From contig JBDRVV010000025.1 of assembly GCA_039802005.1 (NCBI GenBank), positions 1 through 36,947 of the forward strand: a stretch of 36,947 nucleotides of DNA, read 5' to 3'. Below are positions 11,880 through 15,975 of the stretch, in pieces (the stretch's first letter is position 1; every line of letters starts with the position of its first letter). The position numbers were made by a program, and so were the translations under genes. This DNA is from a candidate division WOR-3 bacterium (GTDB lineage Bacteria > Hydrothermota > Tepidihabitantia > SM23-42 > JAOAFX01). The notes beneath the pieces were generated by a model. That model was not told the DNA's origin, made no database searches, and worked only from the letters and a program-made list of their open reading frames with translations.

Positions 11880-12968
11880 ATGAACTTTGGCATTCCAAAG
11901 GAATTACCGCCATTTAAGGAAATCCCTGAATATCGTGTAGGATTTTCACCAAGGGCGGTGAAAGAATTGCTCCTGTATGGAGCAAAGGTTTATGTTGAAT
12001 CAGGCGCGGGTGAAGGAGCTGGTTTTACTGATGAAGAATATGTGAATGCCGGTGCAGAAATAGTTTTTTCTAAGGAAGAAGCATACCGCAGGGCTGATAT
12101 TGTATTGAAAGTCCGTCGTCCACAACAGGAAGAGTACTCGCTCATCAAAGATGGACAAATCATTATGGGATTTATTCATCTCGTTACAGCAACAAAGGAA
12201 TTCATACAGGTGATACAGGAAAAAAAGATAACACTCGTAGGCTATGAAATAATACAGAGAGAAGATGGCCGACTACCGATAGTAATACCGATGAGCGAAA
12301 TGGCAGGAAAACTCTCAGTTCAGATTGCAGGGAGATTGCTTGAGGCACCGAGTGGTGGCAGAGGTGTGCTTCTTGGCGGATTGCCAGGAATCCCCCCTGC
12401 CGAAGTTGTAATACTCGGTTGTGGAACATTGGGTTCAAATGCTGCAAGGAGTTTTGCTTCTTTAGGTGCTAATGTTTATATTGTTGATATCCTGCGTGAT
12501 AAACTTGATAATCTTGCCTGCCATACTGAAGGAAGCAGGATTACCACTATGTTTTCCACAAAATACAACATTGAAAAGCTTGTTAGATTTGCTGATGTGG
12601 TTATTGGTGCAGTGCTGGTTCCTGGAAAGAGGACACCGGTATTAGTCACTGCCGATATGGTAAAAACTATGAAAAAGGGTTCAGTGATTGTTGATTTTGA
12701 TATTGATCAGGGCGGGTCAATTGAAACAGCAAAGATAACTCCCACCGGCAGATTTGTTTATTCGGTCGATGGTGTTGTTCATTTCTGTATGCCTAATGCT
12801 ACGACGGTGGTCCCACGAACCGCGACCCATGCAATTTCCTCTGCTATTTTTCCTTACATTCGCGTTATTGCTGAATTGGGTTTTGATAGGGCATTAAGAG
12901 AGATCCCTGAACTTTCCAGAGGTATCTATGCCGAAAAAGGCGAAATTAGAAAGGAGTATCTGTCATGA
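11880..12968 (+). CDS. ald: alanine dehydrogenase family protein
   Basis: A 362-residue protein of the alanine dehydrogenase/transhydrogenase-alpha family, catalysing NAD-dependent alanine to pyruvate plus ammonia if it is a true Ald. The N-terminal GIPKE segment, the VLKVRRPQ Lys, the FIHLVT His and the VDFDIDQGGSIET Asp match the substrate and proton-relay positions of Ald. The Rossmann motif VILGCGTLGSNAA is near residue 182. The VDGVVHFCMPN and VPRTAT segments are also typical. A GGGGG-rich ribosome-binding site precedes the ATG. It overlaps the CoA-transferase gene by four bases, linking amino-acid deamination to CoA-thioester handling. Confidence 0.88.
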   Translation: MNFGIPKELPPFKEIPEYRVGFSPRAVKELLLYGAKVYVESGAGEGAGFTDEEYVNAGAEIVFSKEEAYRRADIVLKVRRPQQEEYSLIKDGQIIMGFIHLVTATKEFIQVIQEKKITLVGYEIIQREDGRLPIVIPMSEMAGKLSVQIAGRLLEAPSGGRGVLLGGLPGIPPAEVVILGCGTLGSNAARSFASLGANVYIVDILRDKLDNLACHTEGSRITTMFSTKYNIEKLVRFADVVIGAVLVPGKRTPVLVTADMVKTMKKGSVIVDFDIDQGGSIETAKITPTGRFVYSVDGVVHFCMPNATTVVPRTATHAISSAIFPYIRVIAELGFDRALREIPELSRGIYAEKGEIRKEYLS

Positions 12969-14260
12969 ATTGGTTTGATGAATATAAAAAGAAAAAGTGT
13001 TCGCTTGAAGAAGCAGTTTCTGTAGTAAAAAGTAATGACCGAATTTATATTAGTGGAAATGCCGCAACACCTATGACTTTAACTCAAGCATTGGCAATGC
13101 GTAAAGACGAATTGAAAAATGTGGAAGTTACCCATGTTCTTTTATTCGGCGACGATCCGCTTTCAAAGCCCGGGATGGAAGGACATTTTAGACACAATTC
13201 ACTATTTGTTGGACCTGGTGATCGTGCGGCAGTAAACGAAGGTAGGGCAGATTATATTCCCGTATTTTTATATGAAATCCCGGATTTATTTTATTCCGGT
13301 CTTCTACCCCTTGATGTTGCATTTCTACATTTGTCACCACCTGACGAACATGGATTTATGAGTTTCGGTGTTGAATGTCTATCGTCAAAAGCGGCGGCTG
13401 AAACCGCAAAGATAGTAGTCGCACAGGTCAATGAGAAAATGCCCCGGACTTTAGGAGATTCATTTATTCACATATCTCGTGTCCATAAAATCGTTGAGGT
13501 CAATATGGATTTGCCAGAACTTGAACCTGCCCCATTTACTGAGGTTGAAAAGAAAATCGGACAGAATATTGCAGATTTAGTAGAAGATGGTTCAACATTG
13601 CAATTAGGTATCGGTGGTATCCCCAATGCAGCATTAAAGGCAATGTTTAACAAGCGGGATCTGGGAGTTCATACAGAAATGGTATCGGATAGCATTATGG
13701 AGGCGATTGAAGCTGGAGTGATAACTGGTTCTAAAAAGACACTCCATCCCTACAAGGTGGTTGCTACATTCTATCTTGGTTCACGCCGATTATACGAATT
13801 TATCGATAATAATCCGATTTTTGAAACACACCCAACGAATTATACAAATCATCCAGTGGTTGTAGCACGGAATGATAAAATGGTTGCAATAAACTCAGCG
13901 ATAGAAGTTGATATTACTGGCCAGGTATGTTCAGATTCCATTGGAACGAAAATATATTCTGGATTCGGTGGACAGGTAGATTTCATTCGTGGTGCCGCAC
14001 AATCAAAGGGCGGAAAGCCGATTATTGCACTGCCGTCCACTGCCAAAAATGACACTGTTTCCAAAATTGTTCCAACCCTTCAAGTCGGAGCAGGTGTTGT
14101 CACTACTCGCGCTGATGTTCATTATGTAGTAACTGAGTATGGGGTAGCATACCTACACGGTAAGAATTTGCGTCAGCGTGCCGAGGCATTAATAAATATC
14201 GCCCATCCCAAATTCCGTCCCTGGCTTGAAGAAGAAGCGAAGAAAAGAAAGTTACTTTAA
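12965..14260 (+). CDS. acetyl-CoA hydrolase/transferase family, 4-hydroxybutyrate CoA-transferase-like
   Basis: A 431-residue class I CoA-transferase of the two-domain, single-chain type. The catalytic Glu lies in VHTEM at about residue 238, the position used by clostridial 4-hydroxybutyrate CoA-transferase. Other landmarks are LGIGGIPNA near 214 and GFGGQVDFIRGA in the C-terminal domain. The likely reaction moves CoA between acetate and another acid such as propionate, succinate or butyrate, giving acetyl-CoA for ATP formation. It overlaps the alanine dehydrogenase-like gene by an ATGA. Substrate preference cannot be fixed from sequence; succinate or propionate fits the methylmalonyl-CoA context. 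Confidence 0.9.
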   Translation: MNWFDEYKKKKCSLEEAVSVVKSNDRIYISGNAATPMTLTQALAMRKDELKNVEVTHVLLFGDDPLSKPGMEGHFRHNSLFVGPGDRAAVNEGRADYIPVFLYEIPDLFYSGLLPLDVAFLHLSPPDEHGFMSFGVECLSSKAAAETAKIVVAQVNEKMPRTLGDSFIHISRVHKIVEVNMDLPELEPAPFTEVEKKIGQNIADLVEDGSTLQLGIGGIPNAALKAMFNKRDLGVHTEMVSDSIMEAIEAGVITGSKKTLHPYKVVATFYLGSRRLYEFIDNNPIFETHPTNYTNHPVVVARNDKMVAINSAIEVDITGQVCSDSIGTKIYSGFGGQVDFIRGAAQSKGGKPIIALPSTAKNDTVSKIVPTLQVGAGVVTTRADVHYVVTEYGVAYLHGKNLRQRAEALINIAHPKFRPWLEEEAKKRKLL

Positions 14261-14267
14261 AATAATC

Positions 14268-14718
14268 AGTAGCCAGTAGTCAGTATAATGAAAGAAAAAA
14301 TTAAATCTATAGACGATTTTGTGGTTTATCAGAAGACGGTTCAATTGTTTAATGATTTCGTAAATGAAGATTTGCTGATTTTGCTTAGAACAGTGGTAGG
14401 TAGAGAATTAGCTAAAAATCAAGTGCGCAGTTTAGATTCAATGTGTGCTAATATAGAAGAGGGTTTTGAAAGAAAAACAGGAAAGGAATTAAGATATTTT
14501 TTTATAATTTCACGTGGCTCAGCGGGTGAAAGTAGAGGTGGATATTTACGTTGTAAAAAATTTCTTCCTTTGAGTACCATTGAAAAAAGAGTTAAACTAC
14601 TGAACGAAATATTGGCTATGCTAAATTCCTTAATAAGTAAATTGAGAGGTTAAAAGTTATTATGGTTCTAAGTTCTATCTCTAATTGTATAATTACTGGC
14701 TACTGACTACTGGCTACT
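14268..14718 (+). mobile_element. four-helix-bundle ORF cassette with tandem-repeat terminal inverted repeats
   Basis: A 451-bp segment bounded by perfect 18-bp inverted repeats: 14268-14285 (AGTAGCCAGTAGTCAGTA) and 14701-14718 (its exact reverse complement). The arms are built from a 7-bp unit, TACTGRC; the right arm has an extra inner unit from 14694. The cassette encodes only the S23-like protein at 14288. It begins seven bases after the CoA-transferase stop and ends six bases before the epimerase ATG. No transposase motif is present. Confidence 0.8.
14288..14653 (+). CDS. four helix bundle protein (S23 / 23S rRNA intervening-sequence family)
   Basis: A 121-residue all-helical protein. 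The family hallmark is CANIEEGFERKTGKELRYFF at about residues 56-75, followed by ISRGSAGESRGG and a closing hydrophobic helix. Relatives are encoded in intervening sequences of 23S rRNA in Leptospira and others, and also as isolated genes in many uncultivated bacteria. Their biochemical role is not known; nucleic-acid binding by a pentameric four-helix bundle is suggested by structures. Here the gene is the only cargo of a cassette with 18-bp inverted repeats, inserted between the CoA-transferase and epimerase genes. Confidence 0.88.
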   Translation: MKEKIKSIDDFVVYQKTVQLFNDFVNEDLLILLRTVVGRELAKNQVRSLDSMCANIEEGFERKTGKELRYFFIISRGSAGESRGGYLRCKKFLPLSTIEKRVKLLNEILAMLNSLISKLRG

Positions 14719-14724
14719 TTTGTT

Positions 14725-15117
14725 ATGAAGATTTCCCATATTGCCATCGCTGTCAAAAATATCACTGAAAGCCTGAAGATTTGGCAGGATATTTTTGGTT
14801 TGAAACTGATTAAGGTAATCGATGTTCCCGACCAGAAGGTGAAGGTTGCGATGTTGGAAGTTGATGATATGCATATTGAATTACTTGAACCACTTAATCC
14901 TGATAGCACTGTTGCAAAATTCATTGAGAAAAAAGGCGAGGGGTTACATCATATTGCCTTTGCAGTTGATAATATTGAGGCAACAATGGAACAAGTTAAA
15001 AAATCAGGGATCAAGCTGATTGATGAAAAACCACGCAAGGGTGCAATGGATTCAAAGATTGCTTTTATCCACCCTCAAAGCACGGGCGGTGTGTTGATAG
15101 AATTGTGCGAGGAGTAG
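14725..15117 (+). CDS. mce: methylmalonyl-CoA epimerase
   Basis: A 130-residue VOC-superfamily protein, the normal length for methylmalonyl-CoA epimerase, which interconverts the (S) and (R) epimers between propionyl-CoA carboxylase and the mutase. Metal-site residues are visible: His in KISHIAIAV (residue 5), Glu in MHIELLEP, His in GLHHIAF and Glu in VLIELCEE. The KPRKGAMDSKIAFIHP segment is characteristic. The gene follows the right arm of the four-helix-bundle cassette directly, and no good ribosome-binding site is seen. Its stop is two bases before the next gene's TTG start. Confidence 0.93.
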   Translation: MKISHIAIAVKNITESLKIWQDIFGLKLIKVIDVPDQKVKVAMLEVDDMHIELLEPLNPDSTVAKFIEKKGEGLHHIAFAVDNIEATMEQVKKSGIKLIDEKPRKGAMDSKIAFIHPQSTGGVLIELCEE

Positions 15118-15119
15118 TA

Positions 15120-15593
15120 TTGAGCTATCTCCCGCCATTTTTTACCATAATCAGAAGACTGACTGAAGAAAATGTTAAATTTGTAGTAGTAGGAGGTGTT
15201 GCCGCAATTATTCATGGTGTCCCAAGAGCAACATTTGATTTAGATGTGGTAATAGAATTTTCAAAGATAAATGTTAAGAGATTCAATAAAATTCTTGATG
15301 AATTTAATCTTAGACCAACTGTGCCTATCAATCCGCTTGAATTAGCAAATCCACGAAAAAGAACAGAATGGATAAAGAAAAAAAATGCAAAGGTTATCAA
15401 CTTTAAGGACCCGAAGGGAAATTATGCACTTGATGTATTACTAATCTATAATTATTCCCGAATTAGAAAAATCGAAATTGAGATTGAAGAAATAAAGTTT
15501 TATGTGGTTGACAAAAACACACTCGTAAAAATGAAGAGAGAAGCGAATCGGGATGTTGATATCAGAGACATAAAAAATTTGGAGACACTATGA
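15120..15593 (+). CDS. nucleotidyltransferase-fold protein, second module
   Basis: A protein of about 157 residues with the minimal nucleotidyltransferase core: FVVVGGVAAIIHGVPRAT followed by FDLDVVIE. This Gly-Gly and Asp-x-Asp layout matches the DUF6036/AbiEii-like group. I chose the TTG at 15120 because GGAG lies five bases upstream. A GTG at 15105 would overlap the epimerase. The C-terminus (VDKNTLVKMKREANRDVDIRDIKNLE) carries the usual Lys-Arg-Asp helix of these proteins. It shares an ATGA overlap with the helix-turn-helix gene downstream, a toxin-antitoxin-like layout. It is divergent in sequence from the nucleotidyltransferase at 9401. Confidence 0.8.
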   Translation: MSYLPPFFTIIRRLTEENVKFVVVGGVAAIIHGVPRATFDLDVVIEFSKINVKRFNKILDEFNLRPTVPINPLELANPRKRTEWIKKKNAKVINFKDPKGNYALDVLLIYNYSRIRKIEIEIEEIKFYVVDKNTLVKMKREANRDVDIRDIKNLETL

Positions 15594-15901
15594 ATATTTA
15601 TAAAAAAAGACTTTGCGATTCTTATCGCGTTTTACTCTTTTTGCAAAAAATTTATCCATCGGAGAAGATAAGATATTGGCGGGATATTCAATGCCATCGG
15701 GATGGAACACCCCAAAGACTCTGGCGGTTACGCGAAAGTTTAAAATTGAGTATTTCTGATTTTGCGAAATCTATAGGATTTTGTGCAGAAAAGTATGAAA
15801 GATTTGAAAGAATAGGTGAAAAGGTACCAGAAAAAGTTATAAATCGTGTTGCTAAAAAATACAACGTAAGAATAGAATGGTTAAAGGCGGAAATAGGATA
15901 A
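15590..15901 (+). CDS. XRE-like helix-turn-helix protein, candidate antitoxin
   Basis: A 103-residue protein. Residues about 43-98 resemble an XRE/Cro helix-turn-helix: LWRLRESLKLSISDFAKSIG, then a recognition-helix segment (CAEKYERFERIGEKVPEKVI). The N-terminal 40 residues are aromatic and basic and are not recognised. It overlaps the nucleotidyltransferase stop by four bases, so the pair is co-translated. A DNA-binding partner for a nucleotidyltransferase suggests an autoregulated antitoxin, but no operator-like palindrome is evident upstream because the module sits inside the operon. Confidence 0.7.
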   Translation: MNIYKKRLCDSYRVLLFLQKIYPSEKIRYWRDIQCHRDGTPQRLWRLRESLKLSISDFAKSIGFCAEKYERFERIGEKVPEKVINRVAKKYNVRIEWLKAEIG

Positions 15902-15943
15902 ATTTTATACAATCTGAAAGCCGGGTTGTGTTTTACTATTTGG

Positions 15944-15975
15944 GCATTTAGGTGTTTAGGAATTTAGGCATTTAA
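15944..15975 (+). repeat. four-copy 8-bp tandem repeat (solo arm)
   Basis: Four consecutive 8-bp units, GCATTTAG, GTGTTTAG, GAATTTAG and GCATTTAA, lie between the helix-turn-helix gene and the PLP enzyme. There is no inverted partner nearby. The short period resembles the arms of the ORF-carrying cassettes in this window, so it may be a remnant arm. A GGGGAGG ribosome-binding site follows for the gene at 15995. Confidence 0.75.

Follow-up and report, generated by a model that had tools for sequence, protein, structure and literature searches.

A single S23 gene closed by inverted short-period arrays: a probable mobile cassette recurring across bacterial phyla

Introduction

Two operon genes of a candidate division WOR-3 bacterium are separated by a 450-bp insert that consists of a left arm, a single open reading frame (ORF) of 121 amino acids, and a right arm inverted relative to the left. 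What is this insert, and does it move? It lies in a stretch of 36,947 nucleotides, here called the window (contig JBDRVV010000025.1, assembly GCA_039802005.1). An initial annotation of this DNA had proposed that the ORF encodes an S23-like protein, that it is the sole gene of a cassette with exact 18-bp inverted ends built from TACTGRC units, and that the cassette, akin to the stem-closed intervening sequences (IVSs) of rRNA, could be a mobile element that uses this protein.

S23/IVP proteins are widespread and their structures have been solved since 2006; homologs form pentameric rings, and we know of no function for them. The IVSs of 23S rRNA, as in Coxiella and Leptospira, hold an S23 ORF within a closing stem, are excised by RNase III, and are thought to be horizontally transferred. 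Intergenic arrays of short heptamers, including the STRR of cyanobacteria, have been described several times without explanation.

Results

The arms of the window cassette pair exactly over 18 bp, with AGTAGCCAGTAGTCAGTA at 14268–14285 complementary to TACTGACTACTGGCTACT at 14701–14718, and both are built from TACTGRC units. Together with the Pfam match given below, this bears out the original description of the ORF and its brackets, as does the placement of the arms no more than 7 bases from the flanking stop and start codons. The features of the locus, with two S23-less arrays elsewhere in the window, are as follows:

12965–14260, + strand: upstream host gene, acetyl-CoA hydrolase/transferase (PF02550/PF13336); its stop codon ends 7 bp before the left arm
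14268–14285, + strand: left arm, units CAGTAGC, CAGTAGT, CAGTA; imperfect extension from 14259; pairs in the RNA fold
14288–14653, + strand: S23/IVP four-helix-bundle ORF, 121 aa, the cassette's only gene (PF05635, AlphaFold2, Foldseek)
14694–14720, + strand: right arm, units TACTGGC, TACTGAC, TACTGGC, TACT; perfect part 14701–14718
14725–15117, + strand: downstream host gene, methylmalonyl-CoA-epimerase-like glyoxalase (PF13669/PF00903); its ATG lies 6 bp past the right arm
15937–15975, + strand: S23-less short-period array ATTTAGGN, 8 bp; its unit is that of the arms of the S23 cassette on contig C34 of the same genome
7722–7860, + strand: S23-less inverted pair of 7-bp arrays, AATTCTA.. / TTTAGGA.., from reading by eye and an array scan

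Pairing of the arms continues imperfectly to 27 nt (14259–14285 with 14694–14720, 81%), and the right arm carries an additional unit at 14694. This is the window's sole exact 18-bp inverted repeat with a loop of 700 nt or less, and 40 Markov simulations yielded no inverted repeat of 16 or 18 bp, with 0 expected by chance. The sequence TACTGRCTACTGRC has no second occurrence in the 2.54-Mb genome, in which the window cassette is single-copy.

The ORF matches Pfam family PF05635 (23S_rRNA_IVP) at 42.6 bits against a cut-off of 33.8. Its AlphaFold2 model comprises four helices arranged in a four-helix bundle (pLDDT 95.8), for which Foldseek returned the solved S23 proteins 2gsc and 2rld as top matches, followed more weakly by Avd (4dwl/8ub7). 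No transposase, reverse transcriptase (RT), or nuclease is present in the cassette, the PF05635 protein being its sole ORF. Downstream, between the epimerase and a PLP-enzyme gene (15105–15901), lie a gene for a DUF6036 nucleotidyltransferase-like protein and a small ORF that matched no Pfam family, possibly a toxin-antitoxin-like pair; among the relatives searched, the DUF6036 gene occupies this position only in G001, a genome of the same genus (locus L099).

The genome that contains the window (G000) has five S23 genes, and inverted repeats flank every one. Short-period arrays make up at least four of these arm pairs, with a separate unit in each case (TACTGRC, CGGTNAA, a 10-bp GGC-rich unit, and AAATNCCT), and the fifth is a single 16-bp pair. 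On contig C11 of this genome, one S23 ORF (L001:1420–1926) reads through its own arms, with the CGGTNAA units translated as N- and C-terminal repeats.

S23 genes are common in 40 relatives, reaching 13 per genome. A search for inverted repeats at S23 homologs had been proposed in the initial annotation, and the majority of these genes proved to be armed: arms significant against shuffled sequences (z > 4) flank 64 of 101 S23 genes in the relatives, compared with 8 of 200 other ORFs at the same loci. Across about 15 phyla, arms at z > 4 occur at 61 of 79 usable S23 loci, a figure that derives from one genome per species and from loci that are not all independent, by a search seeded with one S23 subfamily, so that the armed fraction may differ in others. 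The period of these cross-phylum arms is mostly 7 where it is measurable, and the loci come from WOR-3, Bacteroidota, Chloroflexota, Acidobacteriota, Desulfobacterota, Fibrobacterota, Verrucomicrobiota, Planctomycetota, CPR groups, and others; no arms are detectable at about one S23 gene in four. The Markov simulations and the rarity of arms at control ORFs led us to reject a chance or artefactual origin. What defines the class is a short-period array, inverted and with a unit that varies by element; neither exactness nor TACTGRC is its signature, and we rejected the latter because it is confined to the window locus within its genome. rRNA was detected by Rfam at 0 of 12 S23 loci and conserved rRNA motifs in none of the fetched loci, on which basis we also rejected the idea that S23 loci are hidden in rRNA genes.

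Two further loci deserve mention. On the Pseudanabaena plasmid pPg_01 (L250), an S23 cassette with long AAAAGCT/AAAAGCC arrays has cas6 on one side and cas4 on the other, within a type I-D CRISPR operon. A Nitrospiraceae MAG (L185:5591–7100) has a CRISPR array (CRISPR-DR7, at least 21 units) downstream of an armless S23 gene.

Arm units change quickly relative to the protein. At 45–65% S23 identity, arm scores between elements are at background (8–9), compared with 18–19 within elements (1575/1590 pairs), and the arms of related elements stay mutually complementary after complete change of the unit. A common unit is found only above about 60–65% S23 protein identity, which holds at unrelated loci too. 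This co-change is compatible with an S23 protein that reads a rapidly evolving unit, or with arms that pair with, or are copied from, each other. Once the common unit is discounted, register pairing is weak (mean z 0.42, 6/74), and overall the arms resemble a pair of arrays built on a single degenerate word, in which about 5 positions are fixed and 2 vary, more than a long perfect stem; the exact pairing of the window arms departs from this trend. The protein itself is under purifying selection, with dN/dS of 0.04–0.29 where dS is not saturated, a range that leaves out L004 versus L082 (frame offset).

The initial annotation had also pointed to empty junctions as something to look for, and these exist. 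The CoA-transferase and epimerase genes abut directly, cassette-free, in several relatives, and the cassette is absent from this junction in G001, whose CoA-transferase is 95.6% identical. At the same junction, G014 carries the same cassette (S23 64% identical) with CAGTAGN in both arms and a different variable base, G016 a different S23 cassette, and G006 a solo CAGTAGG array; other solo arrays occur there too, and the loci with S23-less arrays at this junction include L104, L100, L107, and L108. On Nostoc plasmids, operon junction A/B is empty (3–4 bp) in five cases and occupied by an S23 cassette in three others; pNsp_c, empty at A/B, bears a different S23 cassette at the neighboring junction, which is empty in pNsp_a. 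In Nostoc edaphicum pNe_5, an S23 cassette (L247:2980–3348) separates ribonucleotide reductase subunit genes at a junction that is empty in Calothrix NIES-4105; this cassette has G-rich GGGAGTA arms and the rare antisense orientation. G005 and G012 provide a further filled/empty comparison. One candidate target-site duplication of 5–7 bp (TTCTAA) was found and two other cases had none, so that no general duplication emerged from the junctions compared.

Similar cassettes also occupy unrelated positions. In G000 and G016, genomes of two different families, S23 proteins that are 83–88% identical sit at non-homologous loci with common AAATGCCT arms, and S23 proteins of WOR-3 and Syntrophaceae are 77% identical with the CGTGTCC unit in both. 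Between the two WOR-3 genomes, core genes are 58% (epimerase) and 84% (CoA-transferase) identical, and the S23 identities just given are equal or higher. A tblastn search for phage carriage returned 0 matches in 50,697 phage records.

Arms are found without the gene as well. In pNPM1, an S23 ORF is split by a clean 182-bp S23-less insert with the same heptamer arms, and the family of this insert occupies at least 61 places on 37 plasmids. In G012 and G011, cassette arm sequences recur at dozens of sites that have no S23 gene. The 9-bp-period CGTTATTNN arms of one G012 locus (L043:2346–2475 and 2910–2990) have S23-less copies, often paired, at more than 60 sites in that genome and at more than 35 in G011. 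Solo-array density per genome tracks S23 presence only partly, and G037 (L318–L322), a genome in which PF05635 has no match, contains one 7-bp CTCTTTGCC-like array, so the link between arrays and S23 is not strict. Given the filled and empty sites, the S23-less insertion, and the spread of cassettes, arms included, to unrelated loci and between phyla, mobility of the cassette together with its arms is well supported by sequence comparison.

Discussion

We consider it probable that the window carries a small mobile cassette in which two inverted degenerate arrays, with a unit mostly of 7 bp, enclose a single S23 (IVP) gene, and whose arms S23 would recognize. As a layout that recurs across phyla, comes and goes, and moves from gene to gene, it looks like a mobile-cassette class that has gone unnoticed. 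Such a cassette would insert between co-transcribed genes, nearly always in sense, would be read through by the host transcript, and would travel with its arms. Most likely an S23 oligomer recognizes the unit of its own arms, either in the DNA or in a stem-loop transcript, and may mark the element for movement by host enzymes, which we infer from the lack of a transposase and the absence of RT from 38 of 41 genomes. S23 would presumably be needed for mobility, RNase III could process the stem, and S23-less copies with matching arms would be non-autonomous passengers. The original suggestion of a mobile element that uses its S23 protein thus stands as to mobility; that the protein acts on the arms we infer.

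An alternative that we regard as unlikely is that the arms function only in RNA, making the cassette an operonic intervening sequence: RNase III would cut the long transcript stem, free or destroy the S23 mRNA, and split the operon message, and base pairing would maintain the complementarity. The window arms do pair in the predicted RNA, forming the outer stem of both the MFE and centroid structures (z −3.7), and the Coxiella IVS has tandem GACAGAT heptamers of variable copy number just upstream of the S23 start, with the RNase III site falling at the first of them (PMC4990558). The sense orientation of S23 relative to its neighbors (++ 75, −− 2; 49 and 0 in a second count) suits both this reading and the mobile-cassette one, and is ordinary behavior for operon genes too, control ORFs also being mostly sense (++ 173, −− 13). 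Arm mismatches in the WOR-3 set are of the G:U type in 181 cases and of the A:C type in 114, where composition predicts 143:133; however, this signal could come from strand mutation bias, there is no such excess across phyla (105:103), and the weakness of unit-by-unit pairing beyond the shared unit also argues against a role confined to RNA. The sense bias, along with the fold similarity to Avd (4dwl, 8ub7), would also accommodate a retroelement in which S23, like its fold relative, recruits an RT to the element RNA. This is the least probable of the readings weighed here: a search in which positive controls were detected found no RVT_1 in G000 or in G016, which has 13 S23 copies, and none in 38 of 41 genomes overall, and RT- or DGR-like mobility is disfavored on that ground.

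Less credible to us than the RNA reading is a scheme in which the inverted arrays came first, as hairpin elements or landing sites in their own right, and S23 genes insert into them or persist between them. S23-less arrays are common, even at the same junction elsewhere, but the unit tracks the S23 subfamily across loci, and whole cassettes with their arms have been gained at junctions that are array-free when empty. Already strongly disfavored is the notion that S23 is an ordinary operon gene whose adjacent short tandem repeats arise from slippage or tolerant operon junctions; this would account for its codirectionality with other operon genes and for purifying selection, but the arrays are inverted and unit-matched, copies are mobile with their arms, and control ORFs of the same loci go without arms.

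The mobile-cassette reading has a bolder form, which is possible and on which we would not yet wager: a pan-bacterial class of minimal mobile element apart from transposons and introns, in which a ring-forming four-helix protein would move a cassette ending in inverted arrays of a self-chosen, fast-changing heptamer and drive large families of S23-less arrays in trans. If true, this would explain the heptamer repeats of cyanobacteria, Xanthomonas, and others, as well as the origin of rRNA IVSs. If S23 and the heptamer arrays are halves of one mobile system, binding of the arms by S23 and S23-dependent movement become directly testable, and rRNA IVSs would represent a single setting of a far broader kind of element.

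Among known systems, rRNA IVSs are the nearest relatives. Like them, the window cassette encodes an S23/IVP protein as the one ORF of an insert of about 430 nt, the ends of which form a closing stem, and the kinship proposed at the outset gains weight from the Coxiella heptamers just upstream of the S23 ORF (PMC4990558). Unlike them, its hosts are operon genes and not an rRNA gene; S23 cassettes lie between protein-coding operon genes, have a repeat unit that differs per element, and are known here from DNA. Published heptamer arrays, namely GGGNATC in Xanthomonas and Nostoc, with about 70 convergent inverted pairs in Xanthomonas (PMC4692102), and TAACTGA in Beggiatoaceae (PMC4679880), resemble the S23 arrays, as does STRR, in being intergenic, abundant, and of period 7, which the window arm fits. 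In contrast to these, S23-cassette arrays bracket an S23 gene and move along with it, and a text search of the two papers found no mention of S23. Transposons and MITEs share inverted ends, filled and empty sites, and, in the form of S23-less copies, gene-free relatives with the same ends; S23 cassettes differ from them in having no transposase, array-type ends, and, at the junctions compared, no consistent target duplication. Ordinary terminal inverted repeats are conserved within a family, whereas the arm unit is not, being common only above the protein identity given above. Avd of diversity-generating retroelements has the same fold (Foldseek TM 0.70–0.74 to 4dwl/8ube), but most S23 genomes, G000 included, have no RT. 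In the open-access literature, to which our search was confined, we found nothing that links S23 genes to inverted heptamer arrays. With rRNA IVSs as the closest relatives and no such open-access paper found, we file these cassettes as IVS-like S23 elements outside rRNA, and there is a fair chance that they are the main body of an unrecognized class.
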